The translations under genes and the position numbers were made by a program. DNA of 35,980 nucleotides. Origin: a virus. Shown piece by piece: positions 5,032-22,122 of the stretch. The DNA is taken from positions 1 to 35,980 of IMG/VR virus record IMGVR_UViG_3300037247_002101, one strand, 5' to 3'. Numbering within the stretch: position 1 is the stretch's first letter; every line of letters begins with the position of its first letter. Below the pieces are notes generated by a model. It saw only the letters and a list, made by a program, of their open reading frames with translations. It was not told where the DNA came from and ran no database searches.

Positions 5032-5350
5032 TTAGTAATTGCCCAGTTAATGCAGAAGCTTTTGGAACATGCATTAAAGCTGTATGAAGAGAATGAGCTA
5101 TTTTTTGAAAAGCTTTCTCTCCAAGATCATCTTTGATCCCATCGGCAAAACCTTTCGCAGTATATCGTGCTTGTTTCGTTATTTCTTCAACGCGCTCGAA
5201 TTCTGCTGCTCTTTCTACATCCATGTTGATCAATGCTTCTGCAAGTTTTTCAACGTCTTGCGGTGTATATTCATTGCCGTATTTTTGAGATAAGAGATCT
5301 TCAGCCCGAGCAGCATATTTTTCAAGGAACTGTATCCTTTGTATTCTCAC
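5024..5350 (-). CDS. Helical virion-cluster protein, paralogue of the next gene upstream
   Basis: 108 aa from GTG at 5350, beginning MRIQRIQFLEKYAARAEDLL. It aligns by eye with the protein at 5365-5658: L.KYA..AE.LL...YG..Y...DVE.LAE.LI..DVE.A.E...V.E. The two are therefore tandem duplicates. It bears FLEKYA near the N-terminus. The Shine-Dalgarno sequence is weak (AGG 6 nt before GTG), so translation may depend on the upstream gene 14 nt away. Confidence 0.65.
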   Translation of the reverse strand: MRIQRIQFLEKYAARAEDLLSQKYGNEYTPQDVEKLAEALINMDVERAAEFERVEEITKQARYTAKGFADGIKDDLGEKAFQKIAHSLHTALMHVPKASALTGQLLNV

Positions 5351-5364
5351 TTGAGACCTGTTCT

Positions 5365-5658
5365 CTATTCTGTGGCTTTTTTCTCTTTTAATTCTGCGAT
5401 GAAAGCATTAGCCATTACTTTGCCAGCTTCCACATACTCAGCCACTTTTTGTTGTTCTTCTGCAGCTTCTACATCAAGCTCAATAAGTTTTTCAGCAAGG
5501 TTTTCAACATCTTCGGCTTTGTAATCTTCGCCATACTCATCTTCAAGAAGTTCTTCGGCAGCAGAAGCATATTTCGTCAGCATTTCGCGACGTTCGGCAT
5601 CAACTTCTTGAACCGCAGCTTCTTTTTGCATGTCTTCATAAGTATCTAAAAGTCCCAT
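5365..5658 (-). CDS. Helical acidic virion-cluster protein, tandem paralogue
   Basis: 97 aa, beginning MGLLDTYEDMQKEAAV. Very acidic and helical. The middle (about 29-70) matches the product of 5024-5350, and the end, VAEYVEAGKVMANAFIAEL, matches VGQLVEEGQVMARSFHEEL inside the repeat protein at 5660-6304. All three genes therefore share modules. RBS GGAGAGG lies upstream. It could be a scaffold or internal head protein, inferred from composition and place only. Confidence 0.65.
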   Translation of the reverse strand: MGLLDTYEDMQKEAAVQEVDAERREMLTKYASAAEELLEDEYGEDYKAEDVENLAEKLIELDVEAAEEQQKVAEYVEAGKVMANAFIAELKEKKATE

Positions 5659-5659
5659 A

Positions 5660-6304
5660 TTATTCCTCTCCGAATACTTTCTTGTAAAGGCTGTCGATGA
5701 TTTCGTCTGCGGCTGCTTTATTCAAATTGGCTGCAGCTGCTTGTGATTTTTGTGCACTTGCAACATCATGAGGAAGAACTGATTCCTCTACTGTACCAGC
5801 AGGTTGAGGCGCTGTTGGGGTAAATGTGTATGCCAAATCTCCTCCACCACTTCGTACAGCGGCTTGAATTTGATTTAACAAAGCTTCCACTTTGGCAAGT
5901 TGGTCTAACTTAATATCGCCAACACTAAGATGACTTATTTCGTTAGGATCCTTAATTGATGCTGGATTAGGTGTTATGGCACTATCACCAACTGCTAATT
6001 TTTCTAGTTCTTCATGAAAAGAACGAGCCATAACTTGTCCTTCTTCCACCAATTGACCCACTTTTTCTTTATCTGCAGCAACTTTTTCTGCAGCAGTTTC
6101 TTCTGCAGCAATTTCTTCAGCTGTTTTTTCTACAGGCGTTCCTTCTGCAGCAGCTTTTTCTGCAGCAATTTCTTCAGCTGTTTTTTCTACAGGCGTTCCT
6201 TCTGCAGCAGCTTTTTCTGCAGCAATTTCTTCAGCTGTTTTTTCTACAGGTTCATCTTCTAAAGTTTTTAGAAAAGAATCCAGATTAAATCCTTCTTTAC
6301 CCAT
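5660..6304 (-). CDS. Repeat-rich acidic protein, scaffold candidate
   Basis: 214 aa, beginning MGKEGFNLDSFLKTL. Residues about 19-75 hold three near-perfect 19-aa repeats PVEKTAEEIAAEKAAAEGT, then a coiled-coil region, then VGQLVEEGQVMARSFHEEL (shared with the next gene), then a Pro/Ala-rich part and a helical C-terminus ending DEIIDSLYKKVFGEE. The acidic, Ala-rich, repetitive make-up and its location between protease and capsid fit a scaffolding or head-core protein. Each repeat carries the EKTA motif proposed here as a protease or targeting signal, which would give several cut sites. RBS GGAGG lies 8 nt upstream. Confidence 0.72.
   Translation of the reverse strand: MGKEGFNLDSFLKTLEDEPVEKTAEEIAAEKAAAEGTPVEKTAEEIAAEKAAAEGTPVEKTAEEIAAEETAAEKVAADKEKVGQLVEEGQVMARSFHEELEKLAVGDSAITPNPASIKDPNEISHLSVGDIKLDQLAKVEALLNQIQAAVRSGGGDLAYTFTPTAPQPAGTVEESVLPHDVASAQKSQAAAANLNKAAADEIIDSLYKKVFGEE
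6104..6249 (-). repeat. 57-bp in-frame tandem repeat (3 copies)
   Basis: The block starting CTGCAGCAATTTCTTC (plus strand) recurs at 6104, 6161 and 6218. The copies are almost identical, which points to recent duplication or slippage. They encode PVEKTAEEIAAEKAAAEGT units of the scaffold candidate. Confidence 0.9.
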
Positions 6305-6345
6305 TTATATTTTCCTCCGTTTAAATTTAAATGGAAATCAGTCTA

Positions 6346-6374
6346 AATATAAGCAATACTAGTATTGCTGTCAA
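6346..6374 (-). promoter_or_regulatory. Sigma70-like promoter with palindromic spacer
   Basis: TTGACA (6369-6374), 17 nt, TATATT (6346-6351). The spacer is part of an 18-bp perfect palindrome, AGCAATACTAGTATTGCT (6352-6369), a possible operator. It drives the scaffold-to-capsid operon with a leader of about 35 nt. Confidence 0.8.
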
Positions 6375-6377
6375 TAG

Positions 6378-8123
6378 TTAATTACTATCGATTACTATAT
6401 TATAAAGATTTCCGAATTTTTCTTCGTTTAATTCAAGTGAAGCTTGAAAAATTTTGTCTCTAGCTTCACCCACTTTTGTAAGTAATTTTGACGCTTTACT
6501 ACCAAGAAAACCGTGCCCAATGCTACTAAGCAAAGGATTTTTTCTAACAAAGTCAGCGTAAGAGCTTATAGGTTCTCTTTTTCTTACTTTACCTTCTTGA
6601 TAACCGGCATATAAGTATGTTGCTGGAACACTCAAAAGCATGCTAGTTAGAAAACCTAAACCTTCTGCTGTTTTTTCTAAAAACTGCTTTTGAATTCCCA
6701 TAGTTCCAACAGTTGCCCCACCAATGAGTATAGGCAACAACCATGGATTTCTAGCTATTAACGCCCTTACTCCCTCTGCTTGTCCTACAGAATTCATTAA
6801 TCTTGATAATCCGTAATACAATCCGCCTAGGGCAGCCAAAGGTAGTAAAGGATTCTTTATTGGTAAAATTATCGGCACCTGCTCTGCGGATTGTGTAACC
6901 ATTTTATCATCCGGCATATCTTTTAAAGGAGGCACAATGCCAGCCTGTTCCATTCTACTTCCTTTTTGATGGCCTATATCAAGCGATGCGTACTTTTCTA
7001 ATATGCGTGCCATTACAACTGGTTTTGTTAAAGGCGCCCTTTCCAAGTAATCTGGATACGATTTTAATACATTTGCAACTTTTTCACTAAAATAATTGCA
7101 TCCTATATCATTTGGAATAATAGGTTTTATATCATCGTGAATAATAAAAGTAACGTTTTCTTTTTCCAGTTCTTCTGCTAATTTTTCTTGCCCTTTAGAG
7201 GTCAATGCTAATTTCTGGAATTCAGCTTTTTTAGGCATTACACGCATTGCTACAAGGGTACTTAAAACCTCGTTTAATGGTGCTGACCCTGCCAGATCAC
7301 CTACCATTTTTGCAGGCATGTCCGGTTGTGAATCAACTATCAACCTACTTGGATCTGGTCCAGCGTTGTCTACTTCACTTTCTACTATCTTGACAATATC
7401 AGCTTCTTTAATACCAGCATCTTTTAACTCTTCTGCGGTTTTTATAGCGGAAGGAATAACAACACTGTTGTCGCTGGCTACTTTCTTTAGGGTGTAAGCC
7501 GTACGATCCGCAGGGACGTGAACAAAGCTGATATCAAAAAACTTAGGTTTTGTATTAATGACATAGACTTTTCTTCCATCAGGAAGAACTTTATTCATCA
7601 TAGTTCTTGCATGTTCACAATAATCTTGTATTCTCGGCGCTCTATTACCACAAATAGAACATTCATCATATGGGACCCTTGATCCCATAGAAATAGGTGG
7701 GAACTCACCATCGTCAATCTTCTTTTTTAAGTCAGGAGCTGCATTTATATCTAATCCAATAACTAACTCTACACGATGCATTTTATGATTATAATGTGAA
7801 TATAATATTTCTCCGTAAATTCTATGTCCTAATTTGGGTTTATTTCTGTGATGACGATAAACATTGCCTAATGATTCAAAAGTCTTATGATATTCAACCA
7901 AAGCAGGTTCAGGAAAATAATCCCCATTACGATTACTTCCATAAAATTCTCCGGCTCCTAAAGCATTAACTAGAAGAAAATACCTTTTCAAATCTGGCAT
8001 TAATTTCTGTAAAAATTCTTGAAGTTCCGGATCATAAGAAGCAGTTTTTTCCAATACTCCAGGATGTATAAGAGATATTTCTACGCCTTCATCGCCTGGA
8101 TAATAATCTAAGTATTTAATCAT
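6378..8123 (-). CDS. Prohead (capsid maturation) protease-like protein with membrane-like C-terminal region
   Basis: 581 aa, beginning MIKYLDYYPGDEG. Residues about 55-215 look like a head maturation protease: NRNGDYFPEPALVEYHKTF, YRHHRNKPKLGHRIYGEI, then GEFPPISMGSRV, where Ser in ISMG matches the nucleophile position of the HK97-type LSIGF motif, and nearby His residues could be catalytic. A cysteine pair (CSICGN) plus DYCEH may bind metal. The C-terminal half has several EK.A motifs and glycine-rich hydrophobic stretches (LPLAALGGLYYGL, LPILIGGATVGTMG). It would process scaffold and capsid N-arms. It overlaps the upstream gene by ATGA. The protease call rests on motif order, not alignment. 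Confidence 0.65.
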   Translation of the reverse strand: MIKYLDYYPGDEGVEISLIHPGVLEKTASYDPELQEFLQKLMPDLKRYFLLVNALGAGEFYGSNRNGDYFPEPALVEYHKTFESLGNVYRHHRNKPKLGHRIYGEILYSHYNHKMHRVELVIGLDINAAPDLKKKIDDGEFPPISMGSRVPYDECSICGNRAPRIQDYCEHARTMMNKVLPDGRKVYVINTKPKFFDISFVHVPADRTAYTLKKVASDNSVVIPSAIKTAEELKDAGIKEADIVKIVESEVDNAGPDPSRLIVDSQPDMPAKMVGDLAGSAPLNEVLSTLVAMRVMPKKAEFQKLALTSKGQEKLAEELEKENVTFIIHDDIKPIIPNDIGCNYFSEKVANVLKSYPDYLERAPLTKPVVMARILEKYASLDIGHQKGSRMEQAGIVPPLKDMPDDKMVTQSAEQVPIILPIKNPLLPLAALGGLYYGLSRLMNSVGQAEGVRALIARNPWLLPILIGGATVGTMGIQKQFLEKTAEGLGFLTSMLLSVPATYLYAGYQEGKVRKREPISSYADFVRKNPLLSSIGHGFLGSKASKLLTKVGEARDKIFQASLELNEEKFGNLYNIVIDSN

Positions 8124-9733: not shown

Positions 9734-9762
9734 AATATAAGACGTTTGTCTTATTTTGTCAA
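9734..9762 (-). promoter_or_regulatory. Sigma70-like promoter with inverted repeat in spacer
   Basis: TTGACA (9757-9762), 17 nt, TATATT (9734-9739). The inverted repeat ATAAGAC GTTT GTCTTAT (9737-9754) fills the spacer. It drives the 8746-9705 gene and the protease gene. The -35 box overlaps the stop codon of the upstream gene. Confidence 0.8.
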
Positions 9763-10343
9763 TAGGTAATTCCTCTTTTTCTTAGCCATGTTTTTATGCC
9801 AGGTGTCGATGGATCATGTGATTTCGAAACTGACCACCAATCAGCGAAGTTTTCTAAATTTGGAACTCCTGTATTTTTGTATTTATAATCATGATGACTC
9901 TCTAATCCAGCATGCTCTGCCACAGCTTTCCTGAAGGTTCTATAAGTTTCTGGATCCCTTCCATGTCCGCCATGGAACTGTTCACGATATGCTACCCAGA
10001 TAGAAGGTTTTAACTTAGTTATATCATGCTTAATAAGCGCGATAGGATCTGCTCCTAATTCTCGACCACCTTTATAGACATAATACTTATGCTTCGCAAG
10101 ATATTTTAGGCTTTCCCAGTCTTCTTTGCGATTCTTCCACCATTCAGCAAAGTCCGCTGTTTTTTCAAGTGATTTTACAAATGAACTCTCAACTCCCATC
10201 CGTCTAAAAAGTTCTATACCACTAACTCTTTCATAATTTGAGTCTTTTATTTTTTTTGATATTTCAAGATTCACCTTATTTACTTTATTTGCCAATTGTT
10301 TTGCTTTTAAAACAACTAATGCATTTTTCTCAAAGTATTTCAT
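9759..10343 (-). CDS. DUF5662-like protein with MKYFEK N-terminus
   Basis: 194 aa, beginning MKYFEKNALVVLKAKQ. The C-terminal half (about 80-180) matches the DUF5662 pattern: LAKHKYYVYKGGRELG, IALIKHDITKLKPSIWVAY, then ESHHDYKYKN and FADWW. This family has HD-like His/Asp residues (H-D, HH) suggesting a metal-binding hydrolase fold; its reaction is not known to me. An internal SLEKTADFAEWW repeats the cluster motif. A second DUF5662-like gene lies at 24247-24705. The Shine-Dalgarno sequence is weak (AAGAT 4 nt away). Confidence 0.75.
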   Translation of the reverse strand: MKYFEKNALVVLKAKQLANKVNKVNLEISKKIKDSNYERVSGIELFRRMGVESSFVKSLEKTADFAEWWKNRKEDWESLKYLAKHKYYVYKGGRELGADPIALIKHDITKLKPSIWVAYREQFHGGHGRDPETYRTFRKAVAEHAGLESHHDYKYKNTGVPNLENFADWWSVSKSHDPSTPGIKTWLRKRGITY

Positions 10344-10344
10344 T

Positions 10345-10836
10345 TTATCTTAACTTATGCATTATTGCTTTTAAAATTCCTTGGGGATATAATAATCGTG
10401 TGGATTCTAATGTTCCACCTAGTATTCCTTTTACTTTATTTTTTAAAGGAATTTTTAAGCCTTTTATACTTCTTTTATAGGCAATTAATTCTTCCCTCAT
10501 GGTTGAAACAACTCCTAGAATTCCCCTGTCCCCCAATCTATTCATTTTACCTTTTCTATCTCGTAAATAGTGCGTTAACTCGTGATCCTTAATGATTTTA
10601 GTTTGTTGTTTTGGTGTTAAAAATCTAGTATTTTCAAAATATTCTTCTGGTTTTTGGACAAATATTCCTTTCTTTAAAGATTTCAAAGAGGGATCTAATT
10701 TTTTTGCAACATCCGGATTTTGTGCTATTCGTTTTTTAGGTATATAATAGCCTGCCATTTCCGGGTTTCTTGTTACATCTGGCCATGTCATTTTATAAAT
10801 TACAGGACCTGCTGCTGTTTTCTCAAAGTATTTCAT
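10345..10836 (-). CDS. HExxH metallopeptidase-like protein with MKYFEK N-terminus
   Basis: 163 aa, beginning MKYFEKTAAGPVIYK. It has an HELTH zinc-binding motif at about 85-89 and a downstream REEL (about 113-116) that could supply the third, Glu, ligand of a gluzincin-like site. The sequence HELTHYLRD(K/R)KGK is shared with the N-terminal part of the neighbouring helicase fusion (11082-12929), as is the opening (K/R)YFEK.AAGPVI, so the two are paralogous. Peptidase activity is inferred. It is short for a full protease and may be a structural zincin relic. Confidence 0.68.
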   Translation of the reverse strand: MKYFEKTAAGPVIYKMTWPDVTRNPEMAGYYIPKKRIAQNPDVAKKLDPSLKSLKKGIFVQKPEEYFENTRFLTPKQQTKIIKDHELTHYLRDRKGKMNRLGDRGILGVVSTMREELIAYKRSIKGLKIPLKNKVKGILGGTLESTRLLYPQGILKAIMHKLR

Positions 10837-11082
10837 TTATTTCTTAATTTCTATTGTGGTTTTAGTAAAGCCTTTTATTGCACCCAATCTCTTTGCTTTT
10901 GCATACATATCTTCAAATGAATGTTTGGCTGAATGTTGTTTTAATTTATCGGATTGTTTCGATGCATTATTATAAATTCGCTGCAATGTATCTAATGTTT
11001 TTTTATCAAACTTGATATTTTTCTTAGGTAAAGCTTTTGCTATTAAATCCATTGTTACAGCTATTTTTTCAAAGTATTTCAT
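10837..11082 (-). CDS. Small basic helical protein with MKYFEK N-terminus
   Basis: 81 aa, beginning MKYFEKIAVTMDLIAK. Lys-rich and helical, without cysteines or hydrophobic segments. The start codon overlaps the helicase stop (TAATG), with AAGGA upstream. It could bind DNA, but nothing specific is recognised. Confidence 0.65.
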   Translation of the reverse strand: MKYFEKIAVTMDLIAKALPKKNIKFDKKTLDTLQRIYNNASKQSDKLKQHSAKHSFEDMYAKAKRLGAIKGFTKTTIEIKK

Positions 11083-12929
11083 TACACATCCTTGATAGCT
11101 TCTAATAGTTGTTTTATTTCTCTATTTTTTCTTTTAGACATACTCATTAAATATTCATCTACACTTGTTCTTTTCTTAGTAACACCAAAAATATCAGTTT
11201 CCTGAGGAAATACTGACACATATTTTTTAACTTTCACAGTCCTACTAGGATCAGCTCCTCTCCTAATTCCGCGTGCTGCAGCTTGTTGAGTTCTGGATTT
11301 ATTCCAATATGGTTCAGCTATTTGTACCAAAGTAGTTTTTGGAAGATTTAACCCCTCAGATCCTGCACCACTGTATAATAACAGTTTATTTACTCCCTTT
11401 TGATATTTGGTTACTTCATCTGCTTTTTGTTTTTTAGACATGCCACCAACTATCATACCATGAGGAACTTTAAATTTTTTGAATCTTTCTGATAAAGCAT
11501 CTACTCCGGATCTTCTGAAATTAGAATACGTTAATACTTTTCCACCTTTAGCTAGTTCAGCTCTTGCATCTGCAACCATTTTCTCAAATTTTGGACTGCT
11601 GTTAGCTTCCTTAACAAAACCACGAGTTGTATTTGATATTTGTCTAACTCCCATTAAGTATGCATTTAGTTCCTTCGCCTCTGCTTTAGTAGGCGGTAAA
11701 TTTTTTCTAATTTTGTATTTTAAATAAAATGGTAGTTTTTTGCTTACATATTTATAAAGTTCTTGTTGTTCTTTTGACATAGGAATTTTTATAACTTCTT
11801 CAGCTTTTCCTGGCATCAAATCTTTGACACTGGACTTACTTACAACATAGGTATGCTTATCCAATAAAGCACGCATCTTAGCGGGATCTTTCAATACTCT
11901 TTCTTTCGCACCTTTAATTCCGAGCATTCTGCCAATGATTCCAGGATCAGTTTTTACCTCTGTATAATATTTCTTGTAAAACTTTGATTTGTTCATTGGC
12001 AGGATTTTTTTATTAGCAACCAAATTAACCTGAGAAACAATATCGTAAGGTTCATTGTACATCGGAGTAGCTGTTGCTAATAGGGCCTTATCATATTTCC
12101 ATCTTTGCATTGCAATATTTTGGAAAGTTTTTGTTTTTGGGTTTCTAATAGCATGTGATTCGTCTAATACAAGATGTTTAGCTTCCGGCAAATTATGTCC
12201 CCGGGATAACTTAGCATAAGTGAAACTCTTGCGAGGAGTAACTTTTTTGAAAAACTTCATCTCCTCTTTAGCCAAATTTTTTGTAATAGATGCAGGCGTG
12301 ATTGCAACAGTCTTATCACCTCGAGTAGCCTCTAATATTTTTTTAGTTTTACCCGATCCAGTTGGTGCAATATATACCAAACCTTTGGGACTTGCCTTGT
12401 ATTCTTCTACTAGTCCTGCTCTTTTTATAAATTTTTTTAATGCCTGCATAGGAGGATAACCTTTCAAAGCTAACACAAATCCTTTCAATTTACCGCCTTC
12501 TGCTCTACCATACGCTGCTGTCTCTTCAACTAATTTGGCAGGATAAAACTTATTAGAATTTTTATAAGACCTTTTTCCTTTTTTATCTCTTAAATAATGC
12601 GTTAATTCATGTTGTCTTGAATTTTTTACATATCTTTCAGTTTGCCACTTAAATATTTCTTTAAATTGTTCTGGCGTGTATTCTTTGTAATCAGCCCGCA
12701 TCGCGCGTTTCCTACCTTTGAATGGATTAGGATCTACTAAAATTAAACCTTTTTTAGTTGCCTTATATTTTTCTAAAAGTTTTTCAGCTTTTGGATCTCC
12801 TTTTGCTTTGTTTGCGCCTACATAAATAGCATCTAGGTCCATTCCTGGTGGTCCTGGTGGAGCAATTCCTGCTGGAGGTTTTTTATATACAATTACAGGG
12901 CCGGCCGCTATCTTTTCAAAGTATCTCAT
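11082..12929 (-). CDS. Fusion: HExxH metallopeptidase-like domain plus SNF2/SF2 helicase
   Basis: 615 aa, beginning MRYFEKIAAGPVIVYKK. Residues 1-160 resemble the protein at 10345-10836, with HELTH at 107-111 and EE at 135-136. The rest is a superfamily-2, SNF2-like ATPase: Walker A APTGSGKT (188-195), DESH box (256-259), ATATP (about 285-289), then a second RecA-like lobe with YSNFRRSGVDAL, GAGSEGLNLP and the arginine-finger motif QQAAARGIRRG. Such proteins move along double-stranded DNA. With the MRYFEK tag and late-operon position it may be packaged and act on incoming or host DNA (inference). The Shine-Dalgarno sequence is poor, and the ATG lies 1 nt after the terminase stop. Confidence 0.85.
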   Translation of the reverse strand: MRYFEKIAAGPVIVYKKPPAGIAPPGPPGMDLDAIYVGANKAKGDPKAEKLLEKYKATKKGLILVDPNPFKGRKRAMRADYKEYTPEQFKEIFKWQTERYVKNSRQHELTHYLRDKKGKRSYKNSNKFYPAKLVEETAAYGRAEGGKLKGFVLALKGYPPMQALKKFIKRAGLVEEYKASPKGLVYIAPTGSGKTKKILEATRGDKTVAITPASITKNLAKEEMKFFKKVTPRKSFTYAKLSRGHNLPEAKHLVLDESHAIRNPKTKTFQNIAMQRWKYDKALLATATPMYNEPYDIVSQVNLVANKKILPMNKSKFYKKYYTEVKTDPGIIGRMLGIKGAKERVLKDPAKMRALLDKHTYVVSKSSVKDLMPGKAEEVIKIPMSKEQQELYKYVSKKLPFYLKYKIRKNLPPTKAEAKELNAYLMGVRQISNTTRGFVKEANSSPKFEKMVADARAELAKGGKVLTYSNFRRSGVDALSERFKKFKVPHGMIVGGMSKKQKADEVTKYQKGVNKLLLYSGAGSEGLNLPKTTLVQIAEPYWNKSRTQQAAARGIRRGADPSRTVKVKKYVSVFPQETDIFGVTKKRTSVDEYLMSMSKRKNREIKQLLEAIKDV

Positions 12930-12930: not shown

Positions 12931-14478
12931 TTACATCAACAATGTATCTCTAGCTGTAAGAAGTTGTAATGCCAATTCACCAAATAAGATAGAATGCAAT
13001 GCATCGTCCGGTCCGGTACTCACATATTTGTATGTACCTAAATTCTCATCATATTCGATAATTATATTTAAAAAGTCATCTGCAAATGATTCAAAATCTT
13101 CCCATCTCGGAAATTCTATTTGACGATTCTTTATTTTCCTAAATAGGTCTGTCATCACCATATTACGATTCAATGTATATTCATTGCTTTTACGATTCCA
13201 TTTAGCTTTTGCACGCTGTGATCCAGAATGCCTGAAAGCTATCAATCGTTCTGGATATCCTATGCGAGAACGTATTTCTGAATTTGGGCCATCACCTAAT
13301 CCCGCATCTGCCCCTATTACTGCTGTATGCCATTTAGCATGTATTCTAGGAACATCGCTATGTATAAATGTGTAATCAGCCTCATGTCCTTTATATCTTT
13401 TCAGATGTAAAACTTTGACTTTGCTGCCACGGCTCTGAAGTACCGATACTACTGTTTTAGATTTATTGCTATTTACTGGGCCATAATCAAGTCCAATAGT
13501 TGTTTGTCTATTAGATAAATCTATTGATGTTGGATCTTCCGTCATAATACCACCAGTACAGCATCTTTTCAAATCTGCAATGGTAATTGGCTGAACACCT
13601 TCATCATACTCAAGCCCTAAAACTTCATTATAAAAAGTTGCATCACTTGAACAAGTTTTCCTATAATCAATTACATCTAATTGCCAATCAACCCATGGAG
13701 CTTTTGCAAACATTAGGAGATTAACCCTAAAACCCTTAGTTCTAGAATTAGGGTCCCCAGTGCTTACCCATTGTCCTTTGGTAGTATCAAGGTGCTCTCC
13801 ACAATAACGGCAGATAACTCCATGTAATCCTATATTTTTCTGATCTAAAAAATTCCACTTATTACAATGTTTACATTTGGAAAACCATTCATACATTGTA
13901 GACCGATACCAAATATCAGCCAAGGTACCTTTTGTACGCTTCGGTGTACCGGAAAAAACCACTTTTTTGTATAAAGATCTGGACATAGATTGGTTAATAA
14001 TAGGAATAATATCTATGCTTAAATCTTGCGCCTCATCAAAATAATTTATATCAGTAGATAATCCACGAAGACGATCAGCTGATTGTAAAGCATATCTCAG
14101 GTATAACGTACTACCATTAAGAAATCTTTTAGTAAAAACGTTTTGCGATACATTAGAATTTACATAATGTCTTTTTATAAGGGGACTTGATTCAATAACT
14201 GGAGCTACGCGATCGCCAGAAAATATTTTAGTCTGATCCACAGAAGGTGATATGTATAATTGTCTAAAGTGTGATTCCATTGCAGCTTTTGACATCATGA
14301 TATTAGCCATCGTTGTAGATTTTGATGTTTGACGACTAAATTTCATCACTATCTCTTGTGCATCCAAATCATAAATCGGCCGCATAAACTCGTAGTTTTG
14401 GAAAGAAAATGGCTTACCATTTAAGTGGAGAAATCGTTCGGTAAATTGACTTACTGATATCTTAATTACTTTGGCCAT
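12931..14478 (-). CDS. terL: Terminase large subunit
   Basis: 515 aa, beginning MAKVIKISVSQF. ATPase lobe: Walker-A-like SRQTSKST (about 48-55), Walker B INYFDEAQDL, and coupling motif VFSGTP. A zinc-binding insert, CKHCNKW and CRYCGEH, lies between lobes. RNase-H-like nuclease lobe: GLDYGPVNS (first Asp), IGADAGLGDG, and the final GPDDALHSILF (third acidic pair). All features of a DNA-packaging motor are present at normal length. It lacks the EK.A tag seen in its virion neighbours. It overlaps the 70-aa gene upstream by 13 nt. Confidence 0.95.
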   Translation of the reverse strand: MAKVIKISVSQFTERFLHLNGKPFSFQNYEFMRPIYDLDAQEIVMKFSRQTSKSTTMANIMMSKAAMESHFRQLYISPSVDQTKIFSGDRVAPVIESSPLIKRHYVNSNVSQNVFTKRFLNGSTLYLRYALQSADRLRGLSTDINYFDEAQDLSIDIIPIINQSMSRSLYKKVVFSGTPKRTKGTLADIWYRSTMYEWFSKCKHCNKWNFLDQKNIGLHGVICRYCGEHLDTTKGQWVSTGDPNSRTKGFRVNLLMFAKAPWVDWQLDVIDYRKTCSSDATFYNEVLGLEYDEGVQPITIADLKRCCTGGIMTEDPTSIDLSNRQTTIGLDYGPVNSNKSKTVVSVLQSRGSKVKVLHLKRYKGHEADYTFIHSDVPRIHAKWHTAVIGADAGLGDGPNSEIRSRIGYPERLIAFRHSGSQRAKAKWNRKSNEYTLNRNMVMTDLFRKIKNRQIEFPRWEDFESFADDFLNIIIEYDENLGTYKYVSTGPDDALHSILFGELALQLLTARDTLLM

Positions 14479-14678
14479 AATTCAGTATTTAAAATTCCTT
14501 CTATAGTAATGTCCGGAAATTTTCCTGCTGTCATACTAATAGAAAGATTTGTTGTATAAATATTTACTTCTGATAATTTTTTTGATACAGTATTTTGTAT
14601 ATTAGCAAGATCAGGAAGTGGTTCTGCTTTTTTTACTGCGGAAGTGTTTATTATTTTAATTTTAGGCTTCATAATCAT
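14466..14678 (-). CDS. Small protein between two packaging-region genes
   Basis: 70 aa, beginning MIMKPKIKIINTSAVKK. Ends with TAGKFPDITIEGILNTELWPK. It overlaps the gene before it by 17 nt and terminase by 13 nt, so it is translationally coupled to both. No family is recognised. Confidence 0.6.
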   Translation of the reverse strand: MIMKPKIKIINTSAVKKAEPLPDLANIQNTVSKKLSEVNIYTTNLSISMTAGKFPDITIEGILNTELWPK

Positions 14679-15597
14679 CTATATCCCTTGGTTTTTGTGG
14701 AGCTGCGGTACTTATATCCGCCATATGTTTAAAATCTGGAAGATTGCTTTTTGTCTCATATTCATCAAACTTGCCACCAACTTCTGCACCTATCTCTTCT
14801 GCTGTTGGAGCTTTAATTATTTCGTCATCTTTACCCAATTCGAACTTAACTTCGGAAAACAAATCATTAGCTTTTTGGTCATTTTGGATTACACGTTCTA
14901 ATCTATCAGCAAGTTTTACTGCCAGGCTACCAAATTTAGTTGCTGTTTCTGGATCTGTCAATACTTTCTCTTTAAACAGATAATATGAATCAGCTAACAT
15001 ATCACGAAGCATTTGATCAAAACTTTTATCCGGAGCTGCCCCAAGTTTCCAAAGCATATAATTTTTATCACCTTTAAGTGCCAACTTAAAAGCACGTTTT
15101 GTACTGACGTCTTTCGCGAAAGAATCTTCTAATGTAACCTTTTCAGAATAATTGAAATCTGTTAAATTGAAAAAATAATATAAAAAGGCATCAACATCAT
15201 CTGAAGATGCATTAATATCAAATTTACCATTTACAATCAATTCCATGTCTTCTGCAGATGTGCCTGCCAATGCCATTGCGTACAATAGTATACGCAGTTG
15301 TACATTTTCTAATAGTGCAAAAGCGCCTCTTATAGGATTCGTATCTAAATCAGTAGATTTTTTGAACTGATAAGCCCACATTTGATGTAGTCCTTCTCTG
15401 TCCAAAAAATCCCGATCAATCTCTTTTCTGCGATGATTAAAATATGCAGTCTGTTGAGGTTTTATTTCCATGTATATGTCTTGAAGATCCTGTGCCGGAA
15501 AAGGTAAATTCCATTTGCTTAATTCTTCAAAAACCTGATCAGGTCCATATCGTTCACAGAGTAATGCTTGTATAAATTTTTTGTGTGGCCATTTCAT
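14662..15597 (-). CDS. Unknown protein upstream of terminase, possible small-terminase analogue
   Basis: 311 aa, beginning MKWPHKKFIQALLCERYG. The N-terminus (about 6-45) is a helix-turn-helix-like run, FIQALLCERYGPDQVFEELS. The middle is helical, with FALLENVQLRILLYAMALAG and YYLFKEKVLTDPETATKFG. The C-terminus is low-complexity and acidic. Its location just before terminase is where the small subunit is usual, but the sequence is not recognised and the length is large for that role. The start overlaps the upstream stop as TAATG. Confidence 0.65.
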   Translation of the reverse strand: MKWPHKKFIQALLCERYGPDQVFEELSKWNLPFPAQDLQDIYMEIKPQQTAYFNHRRKEIDRDFLDREGLHQMWAYQFKKSTDLDTNPIRGAFALLENVQLRILLYAMALAGTSAEDMELIVNGKFDINASSDDVDAFLYYFFNLTDFNYSEKVTLEDSFAKDVSTKRAFKLALKGDKNYMLWKLGAAPDKSFDQMLRDMLADSYYLFKEKVLTDPETATKFGSLAVKLADRLERVIQNDQKANDLFSEVKFELGKDDEIIKAPTAEEIGAEVGGKFDEYETKSNLPDFKHMADISTAAPQKPRDIDDYEA

Positions 15598-18062
15598 TAT
15601 TTATTCATTTCTTTTTGAAACTTGTCTAAACCTTTATGTATAGCATAAATAGCGGGAATTCCTAAAGCTACAGTTCCAACTCCCTTGGTTAAACCTTTGT
15701 GTCGTCTTAAAAATTTTCTAGTTGCCTGAACTGCAGAAACAGAACTATCTTTAGTTTTCCCTTTAATAACGTCTTTTATTACAGCTGGAGTTTCCAAAAT
15801 CAGTCCACCAGTTGCTTGTGCTGCAAATCCTCCTCCTACATTAATTGCGGAGCTAACTCTTTTACTAACATTAGATGCAACACCAACAGCAGTTGTAGCT
15901 GCGCCTGTCAAAGTATCAGTAGCATCATCTTTTTTCAAGCCTTTATAAGTTCTCATAAGTCCTTCTGCAACTAAAACTGGTGCAAAAAAATTGCTTTTCC
16001 CCAGAGAAGGTGTGCGAGCTTTTTTTAGAACTGGCATTACTTTTGCGAGTTCAGCAGGCATAATAACTTTTGTACTCACGGATGCCTTTCTTGCTTTCTC
16101 TGTCAATCCATGTGCAAAAGTCACACATGTTCCTTTTATTACACAATCTTTTTCAAATTTAGTTTTAAAAACCAAAGGGTTATATTTTACTTTTCCTTGC
16201 TTCATTTTTGTTTGCACTGTTTTTTCTAATTTAGTTAATTTTTTTGGATCAAGATCAGCATATCTATGAATTGCCCCTAATTCCCTAGCATGCTTCCTGC
16301 TAAAAACTTGTCTTTCTGACGTTTTTTTAGTACTAGGATCTATATATTTTTCAGAAACATGGGCAGTTTGAAAAAGTTTTCCCTCCAAAGACCCTTCTCT
16401 GGCAACAGTACTTCCGGGATATGCTTCCATAATTTTTCCTTTTCCTCTATAAGGCCTCTTAGGATCAATTGGAGCATCTGGTAAAACTTTTTTTGAACGT
16501 ATACCTTTTTTCCAGCCTTTATCATCCGGCCAATCATGATAGGCGGTACTAGTGACTACTACCGGATGCCCTTTACCTCTAGCGAAGCTATCTTTAAAAA
16601 ATACAATGTCTCCTTTTTTTACATCTTTATAATATTTTTTTACTTCATCAAATGACGCAAAATCTACCTTTCTTGAACTAATATCATGTAATTTATTTTC
16701 AGCGGCTCTAATACTAAATGCTGCAGCAGAAGAAATGGCTACTCCCTTTGTTGTTTCACTGTCTAAAATATTTTTCTTTTTAGCTGATTGTTTTAATAAG
16801 TAAGATCCAGCTAATCCAACTGCGCCTACTCCTGCTAAAATTTTTCCACCTTTCCTCAAATTTTTAGTAAATTTTTTAGAGGATTGCAAATCTTTTTTAG
16901 CGGTACTCACTATTTTTTCTATATCTGCCTTTCCTACCATAATTGATTTTTTGGTAGGTTCCTTTAATTTATCTACTTCTTGCAATTTTTTGACTAATGC
17001 ATCAGTATCATGACCCTTTGATAAATCATAAAAAGTCGCCCCACCAACTTTCTTTTCAAACCATTCAATATTAGTTTTAAAATGTTTTTCCCCTTTTAAA
17101 CCAAGTCCAACTATCTTAGGTTTATATCCTTTTATAGAAGCCAATTCTGCCAATGTAGATCCTGGTGCCGCTATAGATACACGAGATTCAGTAAAAAACT
17201 TTTTAACTCCTGGAGCGTCTGTTTTTTGTATATAGTTTATAGATTTATGTTTTTTTGCAGCTTCTCTAAAAGTTTTATCAAATCTACCTACGAAAGGGCC
17301 ACCTAATATTTTTAGGTTGTATTTTTCTTTACCATAATGGATATCTAATGCCTTAACTATCTTATCAATGTCTTTTCCACCTTTTGGCAATGCCTTAGGC
17401 CATACATATCCAGTACCACCATATAAAGAAATTGTTTTTTTGGCTGTTTTTAAAGGCTTTACCCTTTCCTTACTAAAGGCCTCACTTACAGGAATACTAG
17501 AAACATTTATGTTTGGTTTTTGAGCTTTTGGTGTTTTTATAATTTCTCCACCAGGTACTATGTTTCTAGTGTAAATTGGACCTTTAGGGGCCTTCATCCA
17601 ATTCTTAGTACCTAAATATCTATTTCCCGTAACTAAATTGCCGGGGCCAAAATCAGTAAATTGCCTATAAGTGGTTTTTCCTTTTAATATCCTATCAAAT
17701 GCAACTCCTAAATAAGTTTTCTTAGGATGCCTGCCAACATGAATCTCCGCCAGTGGTTTTTTAGCAATATCACCACTTATAGGATACTTTCCTGGTTTAT
17801 ATCCGGGCATTTTGTAATCAGCAGCTTCCTCAACTTTAACACCACTAGCAGTAAACTTTTTAACCCAACTTTGTCTTTGTGTATTAAAAACGGTTTTTTC
17901 TTCAGGAACACCTTTAGGAGAATAGGTTCCTCCCCTTATTAGAACTTTATTAGGATCAATTTTTTTCTGATATTGTTCTCTAACTTTAGATACACCATAA
18001 GTCCCAGCTCCGGCTGCAACTAATCCTGCGGATATGTTTTCTACTTTTTTATTTTTTGCCAT
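15597..18062 (-). CDS. Multidomain protein: MurG-like glycosyltransferase region plus permuted NlpC/P60-like domain
   Basis: 821 aa from ATG at 18062 (GGAGG 8 nt upstream; the GTG at 18071 sits too close to that site). A hydrophobic N-terminus (about 10-25) is followed by a GT-B-like donor domain at about 210-360, with YGGTGYVWPKALPKGG and AAPGSTLAELASIKGYKP, as in MurG/PseG proteins. A glycine-rich hydrophobic segment lies at about 408-423. Residues about 480-660 resemble a circularly permuted NlpC/P60 (YiiX-type) cysteine hydrolase: KKGDIVFF, GHPVVV (His499) and KGTCVTFAHG (Cys646). More hydrophobic helices end the protein. It could modify or cut cell-wall glycopeptide during entry (inference). 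Confidence 0.72.
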   Translation of the reverse strand: MAKNKKVENISAGLVAAGAGTYGVSKVREQYQKKIDPNKVLIRGGTYSPKGVPEEKTVFNTQRQSWVKKFTASGVKVEEAADYKMPGYKPGKYPISGDIAKKPLAEIHVGRHPKKTYLGVAFDRILKGKTTYRQFTDFGPGNLVTGNRYLGTKNWMKAPKGPIYTRNIVPGGEIIKTPKAQKPNINVSSIPVSEAFSKERVKPLKTAKKTISLYGGTGYVWPKALPKGGKDIDKIVKALDIHYGKEKYNLKILGGPFVGRFDKTFREAAKKHKSINYIQKTDAPGVKKFFTESRVSIAAPGSTLAELASIKGYKPKIVGLGLKGEKHFKTNIEWFEKKVGGATFYDLSKGHDTDALVKKLQEVDKLKEPTKKSIMVGKADIEKIVSTAKKDLQSSKKFTKNLRKGGKILAGVGAVGLAGSYLLKQSAKKKNILDSETTKGVAISSAAAFSIRAAENKLHDISSRKVDFASFDEVKKYYKDVKKGDIVFFKDSFARGKGHPVVVTSTAYHDWPDDKGWKKGIRSKKVLPDAPIDPKRPYRGKGKIMEAYPGSTVAREGSLEGKLFQTAHVSEKYIDPSTKKTSERQVFSRKHARELGAIHRYADLDPKKLTKLEKTVQTKMKQGKVKYNPLVFKTKFEKDCVIKGTCVTFAHGLTEKARKASVSTKVIMPAELAKVMPVLKKARTPSLGKSNFFAPVLVAEGLMRTYKGLKKDDATDTLTGAATTAVGVASNVSKRVSSAINVGGGFAAQATGGLILETPAVIKDVIKGKTKDSSVSAVQATRKFLRRHKGLTKGVGTVALGIPAIYAIHKGLDKFQKEMNK

Positions 18063-19179
18063 ATGCCACACCTCCGGCTACTAACCCGGCTCCTGCTATA
18101 ATTTTTGCTATGTTTCTTATTAAATGACCTTTTTTCGGTTTTATGTTTTTTATTTCATCTATAAATGCTTTTCTGGCCGTTCCAAGATTTTTTTGAAACT
18201 TTCCTACATCTTTAGTTCTCTGAAATTTTACAGGATCATCTAAAACTTTGTTTACGTGAGCTCGTAATTTTGGTATTTCATCTGCTGCAAAATTTTCAAT
18301 TTTATAATATTTTTTTGCAAATTCCATGTTTTGTTTACTAGCTCCCATATGACCCAACCTGCTAGCATCTGTAAATAATATATTAGGATTTTTAAAACCT
18401 AATTGTTCAGTTACAGACATAGATCCACCATAACCAATATTTAATGCTGAATTAGATAAAACTTTTTTAAAATCCTTGTTTGGTAATTTACCAATGATTT
18501 TTACTTTTTTGTTTTTTTTCTCTATATTTTTTAATTCTTTTAATCCTGATTCATTTATTCCACCTGATAAAACTAATAATTGGGCATCTTTTCTATCTTT
18601 TAAACTTTCTAATATTTTTTGTGTTTTGCCAGGCAATCCTATTCCTGTACCACCCGCTGATAGAGTTACATATTTTTTATTTTTTTGTAATTCTATTCCT
18701 TTTGCTTTTAAAACATTTTTTATAGCAGACGAATCTACAGTTTTTTGCTTCTCTACATTGATAGGAAATATATCTGTGGCTTTAGAAGATGGTTTATAAT
18801 CAATAGGAGGCGTCTTAATTTTTGTTTCTTTTCTAAAAAGATAATCAGGTCCATAACCCGCGTCAACATAACCTTTATATTTTCCCCTATTCCACCAACC
18901 CCTGGCAATGTCTTTCATGCTCATACCACTTAATAAATCAGCTTTTTGCCCACGAGACTCTAATAATTTTTTATAGGTCCTTGCCTGCATAACATGGCCA
19001 GCACCTCCACTTGCTCCTAAATTTCGCAAAATTTTTGGTGGTTTCCATTGCCCGTACGAAATGGCTATTCTATCTGCTTTAGTTAAGTCATCCTTTATTC
19101 CTTTCAACCCACTAAGAGTTGCGCCAGTTCCAACAACAGAAGTACCAATAATAACAGCCTTTTTATCTTTTTTCTTCAT
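18049..19179 (-). CDS. MurG-like GT-B glycosyltransferase with terminal membrane segments
   Basis: 376 aa, beginning MKKKDKKAVIIGTSVVG. After a short hydrophobic N-terminus come the acceptor-domain hallmark GASGGAGHVMQARTYKKLL (about 55-73), similar to the GGTGGH loop of MurG, and the donor-domain signatures VTLSAGGTGIGLPGK, VKIIGKLPNKDF and NIGYGGSMSVTEQLGF. A hydrophobic C-terminal helix (IIAGAGLVAGGVAYGKK) overlaps the next gene by 14 nt. MurG-family enzymes transfer a sugar to a lipid-linked acceptor. The acceptor here is unknown. There is no Shine-Dalgarno sequence, and the -10 box ends 5 nt from the ATG. Confidence 0.75.
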   Translation of the reverse strand: MKKKDKKAVIIGTSVVGTGATLSGLKGIKDDLTKADRIAISYGQWKPPKILRNLGASGGAGHVMQARTYKKLLESRGQKADLLSGMSMKDIARGWWNRGKYKGYVDAGYGPDYLFRKETKIKTPPIDYKPSSKATDIFPINVEKQKTVDSSAIKNVLKAKGIELQKNKKYVTLSAGGTGIGLPGKTQKILESLKDRKDAQLLVLSGGINESGLKELKNIEKKNKKVKIIGKLPNKDFKKVLSNSALNIGYGGSMSVTEQLGFKNPNILFTDASRLGHMGASKQNMEFAKKYYKIENFAADEIPKLRAHVNKVLDDPVKFQRTKDVGKFQKNLGTARKAFIDEIKNIKPKKGHLIRNIAKIIAGAGLVAGGVAYGKK

Positions 19180-19257: not shown

Positions 19258-19788
19258 ATGAGTATTTTAAGTTTTGGCAATCGTATTTTCCTGGATATTC
19301 CAGGACAAACCCTTTACAAAGTTTTCACATGGCCTTTCAGAGGTAAGAAAAAGAAAGTTGCCATAGGAAAAAAGAAAAGGGAAAAAGTGAGTCTTGAAAA
19401 AGATCACATAAATCTCGCCGTAAAACATCAGAAACTTGGTGAAAAGTACGCTAAGTTAGCTGGTGACTTTTCTGAAACTGCCAAAAGAATGGGTCTTGTG
19501 GAAGTTGAACGGGATGGTCATAAAGAGGGTGAAAGGCAGGCAAAGGAAATGAATACGGCATTTCAGAACACCGTCGACGAAAAAGATACGGAATTGACGA
19601 AGGCAGCTGTGGATCTGAAGCAAGCAAATGTGAATCTGGGGAAGGCAAATGTGAATCTGGGGAAGGCAAATGTGGATAATCTGAAACTTTCATCCGACCT
19701 GAAGCAGGCAAGTCTGGATAATCAGAAACTTTCAACCGACCTGGAAGCAGCAGAAACTGCCCTAGAAGGAATGAAAAAATCCGCCTAG
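19258..19788 (+). CDS. Coiled-coil protein with basic N-terminus
   Basis: 176 aa, beginning MSILSFGNRIFLDIPG, with AGGAGG 7 nt upstream. A Lys-rich stretch (RGKKKKVAIGKKKREK, about 29-44) is followed by a continuous heptad helix to the end. The last 70 residues are repeats of the type LKQANVNLGKANVNLGKA and DLKQASLDNQKLSTDL. The role is unknown; the repeats and helix suggest a rod or tether. It forms a single-gene cassette with its own promoter and terminator, lying inside the minus-strand late region and pointing the opposite way. Confidence 0.75.
   Translation: MSILSFGNRIFLDIPGQTLYKVFTWPFRGKKKKVAIGKKKREKVSLEKDHINLAVKHQKLGEKYAKLAGDFSETAKRMGLVEVERDGHKEGERQAKEMNTAFQNTVDEKDTELTKAAVDLKQANVNLGKANVNLGKANVDNLKLSSDLKQASLDNQKLSTDLEAAETALEGMKKSA
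19624..19674 (+). repeat. 21-bp tandem repeat in coiled-coil gene
   Basis: GCAAATGTGAATCTGGGGAAG is present twice without change, followed by a partial third copy. It encodes ANVNLGK units. A weaker ~54-bp repeat (CTGAAACTTTCATCCGACCTG and relatives) follows. Confidence 0.8.
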
Positions 19789-19796: not shown

Positions 19797-19822
19797 AAAA
19801 GGTCACATATGTGGCCTTTTTA
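19797..19822. terminator. Bidirectional terminator between convergent genes
   Basis: Stem AAAAGGTCAC / GTGGCCTTTT with loop ATAT and U-tracts on both sides. It separates the coiled-coil gene (plus) from the LigD-like gene (minus). Confidence 0.8.
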
Positions 19823-20254
19823 CTCTGGTGTGGTGAGCATATATTTTTTACCTTTAACATTGGACAGTAAAAGGAATTCGCCTGTATCTAATTTAAATTT
19901 TATTCCTTTATCATCTATTGAATGAAGTTTGGTTTTTCCTCTTCTAAGCAATTTTACAGTGCCAGTGCCTTTAGCTGTAGTAAGAGGTCCTTCAAAATCT
20001 AAGTGTCTCAAAGAGTGATCTTGAGTTCTACGTGTCATCACCGGGGAAGTAATGTTCATAGGAACTTTGCGAGAAGCCCACGAATACGCAAAATCTTGAC
20101 CAGGTTTGGCTAAACGGAAATCGAAATGGGTACCATTCTGATTTTTATGCATTTGTATAGCATAATCCCACAATTCTTCTTTTTCCTGGGGTTGAATAAA
20201 ACGATAGCCATAATGATAATATTTGGGGTTATTTTTTGTAATGTTCTTGCTCAT
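19820..20254 (-). CDS. Stand-alone LigD-type 3'-phosphoesterase domain
   Basis: 144 aa, beginning MSKNITKNNPKYYHYGY. It matches the phosphoesterase (PE) module of bacterial DNA ligase D: AIQMHKNQNGTHFDFRL (33-48), YSWASRKVP, TQDHSLRHLDFEGPL (77-91), then GTGTVKLLRRGKTKL. The metal/catalytic residues of the family are present (His36, His43, Asp45, His80). In LigD this domain trims 3' ribonucleotides and phosphates from broken DNA ends, normally fused to ligase and polymerase domains. Here it stands alone, about the size of the domain. It starts inside the upstream gene (26-nt overlap), with no ligase or Ku gene visible nearby. Confidence 0.85.
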   Translation of the reverse strand: MSKNITKNNPKYYHYGYRFIQPQEKEELWDYAIQMHKNQNGTHFDFRLAKPGQDFAYSWASRKVPMNITSPVMTRRTQDHSLRHLDFEGPLTTAKGTGTVKLLRRGKTKLHSIDDKGIKFKLDTGEFLLLSNVKGKKYMLTTPE

Positions 20255-20501
20255 AAAAATGTTTACCTAAACCAAGAAAGGCCCCTCCCAATCCACCTAA
20301 AATACCGAAAAGTGCCGTATTAGGTTTTATTTTTTTAATTCCTTCTACGAGTCTTAATTTCCTTTTTATTAATGCTGCTTGTGCCTCTGCACTAAGTCCT
20401 CCTACGAGTGCCCCGATGGCTGTACCACCTGCAATATTTTCTGTAAAAGAAAAATCCTCATCCCAGGTTTTATACTTGGAGGTTTTTTCAAAATACTTCA
20501 T
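20229..20501 (-). CDS. MKYFEK protein with two glycine-rich hydrophobic segments
   Basis: 90 aa, beginning MKYFEKTSKYKTWDED. Hydrophobic segments IAGGTAIGALVGGLSAEAQA (about 24-43) and ALFGILGGLGGAFLGLG (about 63-79) flank a basic linker, giving a membrane-hairpin look. The start overlaps the previous stop (TAATG). It is similar in plan to the next gene upstream. The function is unknown; an ejected membrane-active virion protein is an inference. Confidence 0.68.
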   Translation of the reverse strand: MKYFEKTSKYKTWDEDFSFTENIAGGTAIGALVGGLSAEAQAALIKRKLRLVEGIKKIKPNTALFGILGGLGGAFLGLGKHFYEQEHYKK

Positions 20502-20797
20502 TACCTGTAGCCTGGATTATCTTTCCTACGCTGCAATTCTTTTTGTATCTGTTTTGTTTTTGATAACTCTGATAACGCACCAGCACCTGTTCCCAGGCCT
20601 CCCCAAACAGCAATATTTTTTAAGTTTGCTGCTACTCCTTTTTTTGGAAGCAGAATTGATCCAGCTAATGCCCCAAGGGCACCTGCACCTGCTACAGGCC
20701 AAGCAGTATTTCTATCTAATTCTTTCCTTAACCTTTCAGATGAGACCTGCTTTTCATCAAGAACAAATTGCACTGCTATCTTTTCAAAATATTTCAT
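20501..20797 (-). CDS. MKYFEK protein with glycine-rich hydrophobic segments
   Basis: 98 aa, beginning MKYFEKIAVQFVLDEKQ. It has WPVAGAGALGALAGSILLP (about 33-51) and IAVWGGLGTGAGALSEL (about 62-78), separated by a short basic stretch, and a charged C-terminus. RBS AAGGA lies 10 nt upstream. It is the same two-hairpin plan as its downstream neighbour, so the pair is probably paralogous. Confidence 0.68.
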   Translation of the reverse strand: MKYFEKIAVQFVLDEKQVSSERLRKELDRNTAWPVAGAGALGALAGSILLPKKGVAANLKNIAVWGGLGTGAGALSELSKTKQIQKELQRRKDNPGYR

Positions 20798-20809: not shown

Positions 20810-21349
20810 TTAATCTAATAACGTTGTACCAACAATGCCCGTTCCCAGACCTAATGCTCCTGCTCCTACTAGTCCTGTAATATCTTTTTTATCAGTTGGT
20901 TGTACTACAGGTTGTACTGCAGATCTTCTTTTAGTTGTAGTTTTTCTTTTTTTATAACCACTACCTTTTGCTTTAGTAGTCCCATGTGCCTTTGTAGATC
21001 CTATAGCCGGCCCTTTGCCTGCTATTCTAGCTCCACTCGGCCCTCCTGTAGGCATTACAACTGATCCTGTTACAGGTTTTTTGGTCCTTTTAAGAATTTT
21101 TTCGAAAAGTCCTGCATCTTTCTCAAAATATTTAATTGGATTTTTTTCAAAATACTTCATTTGTAATGATCCTTTTTTTTCCGGCAAGTTTTTATGTTTG
21201 GTTGATGCGAAATCCTTCGCATCGCTATACTCTGTGTTTCTTGCGGCTTTGCGTATGGCCGGCCCTACCTCGCTTGGAGATAGATCACCTTTTTGTACAG
21301 CGTGCACCATGCCAAAAAATCTTTGTTGTTTTTTACTTTCTGCTGGCAT
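20810..21349 (-). CDS. DUF3008-like protein fused to an MKYFEK-type protein
   Basis: 179 aa, beginning MPAESKKQQRFFGMVHAV. Residues 1-60 match the DUF3008 pattern (MPA.SK.QQR..GMVHA.QKG, ending DAKDFASTKHKNLPEKK). That family is normally a stand-alone protein of about 60 aa. At about 64 the frame continues MKYFEKNPIKYFEKDAGLFEKIL, with two copies of the tag motif, then a Lys/Thr/Gly-rich linker and a C-terminal hydrophobic segment, LVGAGALGLGTGIVGTTLL. An AAGGA lies 10 nt before the internal ATG (about 21160), so a second shorter product could be made. First gene of its operon, behind a strong promoter. Confidence 0.75.
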   Translation of the reverse strand: MPAESKKQQRFFGMVHAVQKGDLSPSEVGPAIRKAARNTEYSDAKDFASTKHKNLPEKKGSLQMKYFEKNPIKYFEKDAGLFEKILKRTKKPVTGSVVMPTGGPSGARIAGKGPAIGSTKAHGTTKAKGSGYKKRKTTTKRRSAVQPVVQPTDKKDITGLVGAGALGLGTGIVGTTLLD

Positions 21350-21423: not shown

Positions 21424-22122
21424 TTATCGATTAAACGGAGTTGTGTACATTTCGTGTGTCGGAAGACCGCCCCATTTATTGTGATAAAAGGCTCGGTTCT
21501 TTTTGAAATTTAAGTGATGTATTTCGGTTTGGTCTGCATCGAAGGCCTCTAACGTGGAAGAATTTTGGTGCCCACACGGAATCTCGGATACTAGGGTAAT
21601 ATTGTATCCTTTCAATTTCATACGATAATGAAAATCGTTGTCTTCAAAATATGCCGGATAAAAGTTCTCATCGAAGCCACCTATTTCTTTATGAAGTTTT
21701 TCAGTTTCTGCAAATATTGCCCAAACTCCAAGAGGCAATACAAAATCATTATCAGGTTTTTGTATTTCTTCGTATAACATACGAAGAGTTTCTTTATGAA
21801 ACGTGATATCATCATTGCAGATAACCATGGCCCCATGTTCCATTGGAACATTATTCAAAAACCAATTCCAACTGGCTCCTACACCTAAATTGAGTTTGGC
21901 TGTAACAAGTATCACTTGTTCTGGAGCTGATAGAATTGCTAGCAATTCTGGATCTTTATCTTCGAAATCAGAGACGTCAATCGCATTCGGAAACTGGTTT
22001 CCGTTATCTAAGACGACTATCTTAGAAGGTTGCATTTCATTGTCATCTCTTAAAGCTGTTTCTAACAAGGCTTGCAGTCGATCGTGGCCGCGATTAAGAG
22101 TGGGAATACAAATTGGAAGCAT
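21424..22122 (-). CDS. Family 2 glycosyltransferase
   Basis: 232 aa, beginning MLPICIPTLNRGHDRLQ. GT-A fold signatures: N-terminal strand PICIPTLNR, VVLDNGN, LNLGVGASWNWFL, the metal-binding ICNDD (DxD-like; about 127-131), IGGFDENFYPAYFEDNDFHY acceptor region and GYNITLV. These enzymes move a sugar from a nucleotide donor. Phage versions usually decorate DNA, virion or host surface glycans, and the acceptor cannot be told here. The gene stands alone with its own promoter and no clear Shine-Dalgarno sequence. Confidence 0.85.
   Translation of the reverse strand: MLPICIPTLNRGHDRLQALLETALRDDNEMQPSKIVVLDNGNQFPNAIDVSDFEDKDPELLAILSAPEQVILVTAKLNLGVGASWNWFLNNVPMEHGAMVICNDDITFHKETLRMLYEEIQKPDNDFVLPLGVWAIFAETEKLHKEIGGFDENFYPAYFEDNDFHYRMKLKGYNITLVSEIPCGHQNSSTLEAFDADQTEIHHLNFKKNRAFYHNKWGGLPTHEMYTTPFNR

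Follow-up and report, generated by a model that had tools for sequence, protein, structure and literature searches.

Two adjacent glycosyltransferase-like genes lie beside the terminase operon of a virus record (IMG/VR IMGVR_UViG_3300037247_002101), and we tentatively propose that they form an accessory, exchangeable module between a divergent gene and a conserved neighbor of the terminase, with a predicted activity on membrane lipids. We named the two proteins by their length in amino acids, GT376 and GT824. The window, that is, the whole stretch of DNA that was analyzed, comprises 35,980 bases. Related loci were collected by their terminase large subunit (TerL) and are labeled L001 and so on. 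The features in window coordinates are as follows.

19258..19788, plus strand: divergent gene on the other flank of the module (blastp 3.7e-9 to L001 6250-6777).
18049..19179, minus strand: GT376, 376 aa, GT-B protein of UgtP/MGDG-synthase-like type (GT28), its N-domain reduced, with hydrophobic segments on both flanks.
18754..19023, minus strand: short N-domain of GT376, residues ~53-142, with GGAGH at 58-62 and VDAGYGP at 105-111 (placed by motif positions).
18190..18702, minus strand: predicted C-terminal nucleotide-sugar-binding domain of GT376, residues ~160-330, with GGTG at 176-179, Glu258, and Asn284 (alignment and motifs).
18061..18123, minus strand: C-terminal Gly/Ala-rich hydrophobic helix of GT376, residues 353-373 (hydropathy scan).
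15597..18071 (GTG start) or 15597..18062 (ATG start, preferred), minus strand: GT824, 824 aa, predicted divergent GT-B half plus permuted NlpC/P60-like half.
17460..17966, minus strand: putative GT-B N-domain of GT824, residues ~36-204, with TDFGPG at 139 and SSIPV at 191 (alignment with L022 and UgtP; modeled with low confidence).
16962..17459, minus strand: predicted GT-B C-domain of GT824, residues ~205-370, with PGSTLAE at 303-309 and Asn334 (bridged hhalign, fold superposition).
16782..16850, minus strand: central Gly/Ala-rich hydrophobic helix of GT824, residues 408-430, separating the two halves (hydropathy scan).
16002..16664, minus strand: permuted NlpC/P60-like domain of GT824, residues ~470-690, with GD at 487-488, His502, Glu549, Tyr630, and Cys649 (motifs, L027 homologue, pooled profile).
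15627..15695, minus strand: C-terminal hydrophobic helix of GT824, residues 793-815 (hydropathy scan).
14662..15597, minus strand: P311, conserved neighbor between the GT module and TerL, function unassigned; used as site marker in relatives.
12931..14478, minus strand: TerL (phrog_675 3.9e-67), used to find relatives.
6378-8123, same operon: head-maturation-protease-like ORF.
2786-3706, same operon: major-head-like ORF.
9759-10343, 10345-10836, 10837-11082, 11082-12929, 20229-20501, 20501-20797, and 20810-21349 (internal ATG): ORFs with an M[KR]YFEK leader.

Both ORFs were present as an earlier sequence-only reading of this DNA had stated, and its placement of the pair in a packaging/structural operon was borne out: they lie in the TerL operon, on the minus strand and directly upstream of P311 and TerL. 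With its ATG start, GT824 shares 14 nt with the 3' end of GT376, and it stops where P311 starts, at 15597. This arrangement fits a single operon, which is presumably late because of its packaging and structural genes. The true start of GT824 appears more likely to be the ATG at 18062 (residue 4) than the GTG at 18071, because the GT824 homologue in L022 begins MSNKKKK. At 19820-20254, the window also encodes a protein that resembles the 3'-phosphoesterase of DNA ligase D and stands alone (PF13298 2.8e-9); in two relatives (L016 4251-5618, L019 764-2200), a longer ORF of ~460-480 aa joins the 3'-phosphoesterase domain to an apparent DNA ligase.

By its profile matches, GT376 is a GT-B protein and falls in the UgtP/MGDG-synthase branch of GT28. 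It matched the NCBIfam model PRK13609 (UgtP, NF010135) at 3.4e-7, below the equivalog cut-off, and Pfam Glyco_tran_28_C at 0.0048, under that family's cut-off. Against a profile of 25 bacterial UgtP proteins, hhalign gave 88.8% (E 2.4e-6; reversed control 2.2%), and NCBIfam returned no murG match. UgtP and MGDG synthase (GT28; NF010134/NF010135, PF06925 + PF04101) have in common with the phage proteins a C-terminal GT-B domain, a GG loop, the motif (P)GG-x-T/S-xx-E, and a downstream Asn. GT376 keeps the donor-site motifs: GGSMSVTE (251-258) aligns with GG-x-T-xx-E, and a KQN whose last residue is Asn284 aligns with QExxN, so that Glu258 and Asn284 are both in place. The distance from GGAGH (58-62) to the interdomain linker (FPINV at 138) is about half the UgtP span.

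The proteins had been described as MurG-like, a label that stands at the level of the GT28 superfamily, to which MurG also belongs, with UgtP/MGDG synthase being the nearer family. In L017, a standalone GT28 protein just before P311 matched PF04101 at 2.4e-10 (above cut-off) and UgtP at 3.3e-11, and its murG match (TIGR01133) was weaker at 3.2e-8. This protein and the GT half of an ORF in L004 match UgtP strongly (99%, about 3e-18) and have both the Glu and the Asn that are conserved; for the L004 half (99%, 3e-18), the match spans most of the UgtP length, and NCBIfam gave no murG match. MurG as nearest family was dropped in favor of UgtP, the better match, and lipid II specificity cannot be inferred from a sequence likeness to MurG.

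The N-terminal half of GT824 is a predicted divergent GT-B domain, whose tie to GT28 depends on a bridging profile. Residues 1-440 gave no family match with their own sequence and reached 0.9% against the UgtP profile alone (hhalign). Against a bridging profile of UgtP and phage GT28 proteins, this half with its L022 homologue reached 74-82% (E ~1e-5; reversed control <1%), and an HMM built from these two sequences alone matched the bona fide GT28 protein of L017 at 5.8e-4. The GGxGH acceptor-loop histidine is absent throughout GT824, which has GGTYSP at 47 instead.

Structure prediction pointed in the same direction for this half. A five-sequence AlphaFold2 model of GT824 had an overall pLDDT of 39.8 and was usable only at residues ~205-370 (pLDDT mostly 50-74), which form six alternating beta/alpha units. 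Residues 189-374 of the model superposed on GT-B nucleotide-sugar enzymes, e.g., WaaC and UDP-GlcNAc 2-epimerase (VIA-align Z 9.6-11.9), a fold match that is not fully independent because the alignment behind the model held two GT28 rows. A model made without an alignment had a pLDDT of 36 and gave no significant fold match. GPCR entries among the fold matches probably do not reflect likeness to a membrane receptor; the aligned range was ~1001-1183 of fusion constructs, a part that we take to be the glycogen-synthase fusion partner.

For the C-terminal half of GT824, residue order and a pooled profile indicate a permuted NlpC/P60-type Cys-His domain. Its residues, defined as in PMC3142127, follow the permuted order GD...His...Glu...Tyr...Cys, and the homologue in L027 has the same order with His66, Glu78, Tyr148, and Cys170. 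Permuted NlpC/P60 proteins (YaeF/YiiX, LRAT; MEROPS C92, PF05708) likewise have GD, His, Glu, and Tyr followed by a C-terminal Cys on a helix. The Tyr-Cys spacing is 19 in GT824 and 22 in L027; by the numbering of PMC3142127, it is 13 for YiiX and 27 for BcPPNE. Because His502 precedes Cys649, the order differs from that of canonical NlpC/P60 endopeptidases, in which Cys is N-terminal to His. Unlike PF05708 enzymes, GT824 lacks a single-sequence match to the family (Pfam gave none for this half), has His502 and Glu549 set apart by a long insertion, and is fused to a GT-B domain. Four pooled phage sequences matched 18 PF05708 (C92) proteins at 71% (hhalign, E 3.6e-5; reversed 0.1%), and the C-half of GT824 with L027, without the other phage sequences, gave a nonsignificant 1.7%. 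The domain calls of the sequence-only reading thus survived profile-profile comparison, those for the GT824 halves only via bridged (GT) or pooled (NlpC) profiles; in the AlphaFold2 model, the NlpC region had a pLDDT <50, so its permuted papain-like fold is putative.

We then compared the locus with its relatives. In the nearest, L001 (TerL 84% identity), the divergent gene sits directly between a LigD-like gene and P311, with no GT genes separating it from P311, and a tblastn search with GT376 and GT824 against the whole 155.9-kb L001 contig gave no match. GT or NlpC domains recur beside TerL in five further lineages (L004, L022, L017, L027, and L018). L004 has a single 981-aa ORF with the NlpC-like domain first and GT28 second, the reverse of the order in GT824. 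In L022, a protein of 430 aa encoded between P311 and TerL corresponds to the GT half of GT824 by itself (2.4e-55); in L027, a protein of 307 aa whose gene abuts P311 corresponds to the NlpC half by itself (4.4e-12); and L018 has an NlpC-like domain without a GT one gene upstream of P311. P311 itself is present in nearly all related loci. Neither domain was found in the stretches read of L006/L016, L007, L019, L023/L026, and L024, suggesting that the function of the module is not essential.

Because the same domains adjoin the same genes in other lineages, the observation of two GT-like ORFs, one with an NlpC-like domain, goes beyond chance. The pairing of glycosyltransferase and Cys-His domain recurs within one gene in L004 and as separate genes in other lineages, which confirms that it is real. 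Since the domains recur fused or separate by TerL, we regard GT824 as a natural fusion within an exchangeable module, and the coexistence of both versions suggests that the two domains are true units with a linked role. Identities among the phage NlpC-like domains are only about 18-30%. Direct searches for GT376 and GT824 relatives found none in viral contigs, phage records, or PHROGs, and a PDB search by sequence gave only weak matches, among which those of GT824 to an antibody light chain and a spidroin were set aside as chance. The GT and permuted NlpC superfamilies are each known; the libraries and literature searched gave no instance of their pairing or of its modular recurrence among phages, and no earlier report of a GT-B and permuted NlpC/P60 fusion came up in the literature searched.

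Several other features of the related loci were observed. In L022, an ATP-grasp-like ORF (4737-6530; R2K_2 0.001) directly precedes the standalone GT824-like protein. TerL, at a total length of 888-1075 aa, carries large insertions in L024, L027, L038, and L049, one of which reads as intein-like (KCGLSSKKITTYDGTVKTLGTLVPGDKI...VTHNS), and it is split into several ORFs in L021, L033, L035, L040, and L048.

The right part of the window is assigned to the phage because its homologues lie in the L001 contig, and the phage is large and probably myo-like. The host is probably a member of Bacteroidota, judging from one T9SS type A sorting domain in the record (protein at 31954-32688; TIGR04183, above the curated cut-off); a TerL scan of bacterial genomes for the host gave no match. 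Distant isolated relatives are Salmonella phage Arash and Vibrio phages D69/D148/D181, with ~29-31% identity in TerL and ~31-33% in the major capsid protein. Of these, Arash is a myovirus of 180 kb whose virion proteome is very complex (PMC10585845). In the phage collection containing these isolates, GT376 and GT824 had no match.

A Gly/Ala-rich hydrophobic helix comes after each GT domain. Hydrophobic termini had been ascribed to both proteins, and we found them at both ends of GT376 (residues 7-25 and 353-371 in the hydropathy scan) and at the C-terminus of GT824 (793-811, besides a central segment at 408-426), whose N-terminus fell under the threshold. Both proteins are also strongly basic, with a net charge per residue of +0.108 (GT824) and +0.114 (GT376) and values of +0.05 to +0.12 in the relatives, compared with a mean of 0.013 and a maximum of 0.053 among 29 bacterial UgtP proteins. 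The helices, the basic charge, and the fusion of one protein to a Cys-His domain are additions of the phage proteins relative to UgtP. By sequence, the helices and charge suit membrane and/or DNA association; packaging is a separate, candidate reading.

Many unrelated ORFs in the window and in L001 (nine in L001) share the short N-terminal leader M[KR]YFEK, which resembles the phage-specific capsid-targeting leader of, e.g., T4 internal proteins. Neighboring proteins with the MKYFEK leader are also basic (+0.06 to +0.15), and most structural operon proteins are neutral or acidic. The leader is absent from both GT376 and GT824, and we therefore dropped it as a packaging signal for these proteins. 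The relatives have common leaders of their own: MLxxLGFxKKA in L027, MGKYFxKTS in L016/L019, and MDKA in L018/L023. An HELTH (HExxH) motif lies in the N-terminal part of an SNF2 helicase led by MRYFEK (11082-12929), and it was also read in small separate proteins of relatives (L004 3916-4575, L023 8113-8613, and L027 801-1370; see also window 10345-10836), which suggests that the HELTH part is a zincin-like domain that may also be shuffled.

UgtP glucosylates diacylglycerol. Characterized permuted NlpC/P60 members act on lipids or acyl groups, not peptidoglycan (PMC3142127, PMC12994826). YiiX holds a fatty acid, permuted enzymes have a hydrophobic pocket, and membrane segments fused or close by are typical of them (PMC3142127); Tox-Act1, a T6SS effector, is a phospholipase cleaving phosphatidylglycerol (PG) and phosphatidylethanolamine (PE) (PMC12994826). 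Because permuted NlpC/P60 proteins act on lipids and UgtP glycosylates diacylglycerol, we favor a lipid or glycolipid module over a peptidoglycan cutter. The hydrophobic helices would hold GT376 and GT824 at the host inner membrane, where the permuted NlpC/P60 half may act on a membrane lipid or a lipid-linked substrate by cleaving off or transferring one of its acyl chains, and a GT-B half may use a nucleotide-sugar donor to glycosylate a lipid acceptor. The outcome would be remodeled membrane lipids or surface glycolipids. The proteins may be made late and act on the envelope before lysis; less certainly, they may be packaged in the head with the DNA and act at entry.

One alternative is that the domains are degenerate: membrane-associated phage proteins would have retained the GT-B and papain-like folds for binding or for structure, without catalysis. 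The reduced N-domain of GT376 and the missing GGxGH histidine of GT824 speak for such a role, as does the very weak per-sequence similarity to any family. However, the NlpC His/Glu/Tyr/Cys set is kept in GT824, and His/Tyr/Cys in L004, L018, and L027, in spite of the low identities among these domains, and the strong UgtP matches of L004 and L017 retain the conserved Glu and Asn. We consider degeneration rather unlikely, though a serious candidate.

Slightly less probable, in our view, is late surface modification, in which the GT28 domain would glycosylate a lipid or glycolipid of the host, whose acylation the NlpC domain would alter, so that a receptor is masked or superinfection is excluded. 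A GT2 glycosyltransferase in the window (21424-22122; 8.7e-9) and the UDP-GlcNAc 2-epimerase-, GT2-, RfbA-, and RfbC-like genes read from sequence beside TerL in L024 (241-4033) suggest that glycan chemistry is common at this locus. A presumed late operon would nevertheless be late for superinfection exclusion.

A further reading is that some large phages carry a head-packaged, membrane-anchored two-enzyme device for lipid remodeling, combining a glycolipid-type GT and an LRAT/YiiX-type acylase, which would enter together with the genome and change the inner membrane of the host at that stage. We consider it doubtful; GT376 and GT824 both lack the MKYFEK leader of neighboring basic proteins, which makes their packaging doubtful. 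The sequence-only reading's own version, a virion-borne MurG-like GT and NlpC/P60 peptidase acting on peptidoglycan or lipid II, is improbable: GT28 does include MurG (L017, murG 3.2e-8), NlpC/P60 does include peptidoglycan endopeptidases, and a lytic-transglycosylase-like ORF, by sequence reading, lies nearby in L022, but UgtP, the closest GT family and the better match, makes glycolipids, and the permuted Cys/His order marks a hydrolase of the lipid- or acyl-acting type (PMC3142127, PMC12994826).

In large phages, these two domains are paired repeatedly and interchangeably at one fixed position next to the packaging genes, in some cases fused within a single gene, in either order, and the pairing lends itself easily to a direct biochemical test. 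If active, the module would represent a phage system that edits host membrane lipids, which as phage targets are little studied relative to surface sugars and cell walls, and would link permuted NlpC/P60 proteins, recently shown as lipid-attacking T6SS effectors, to phage biology.
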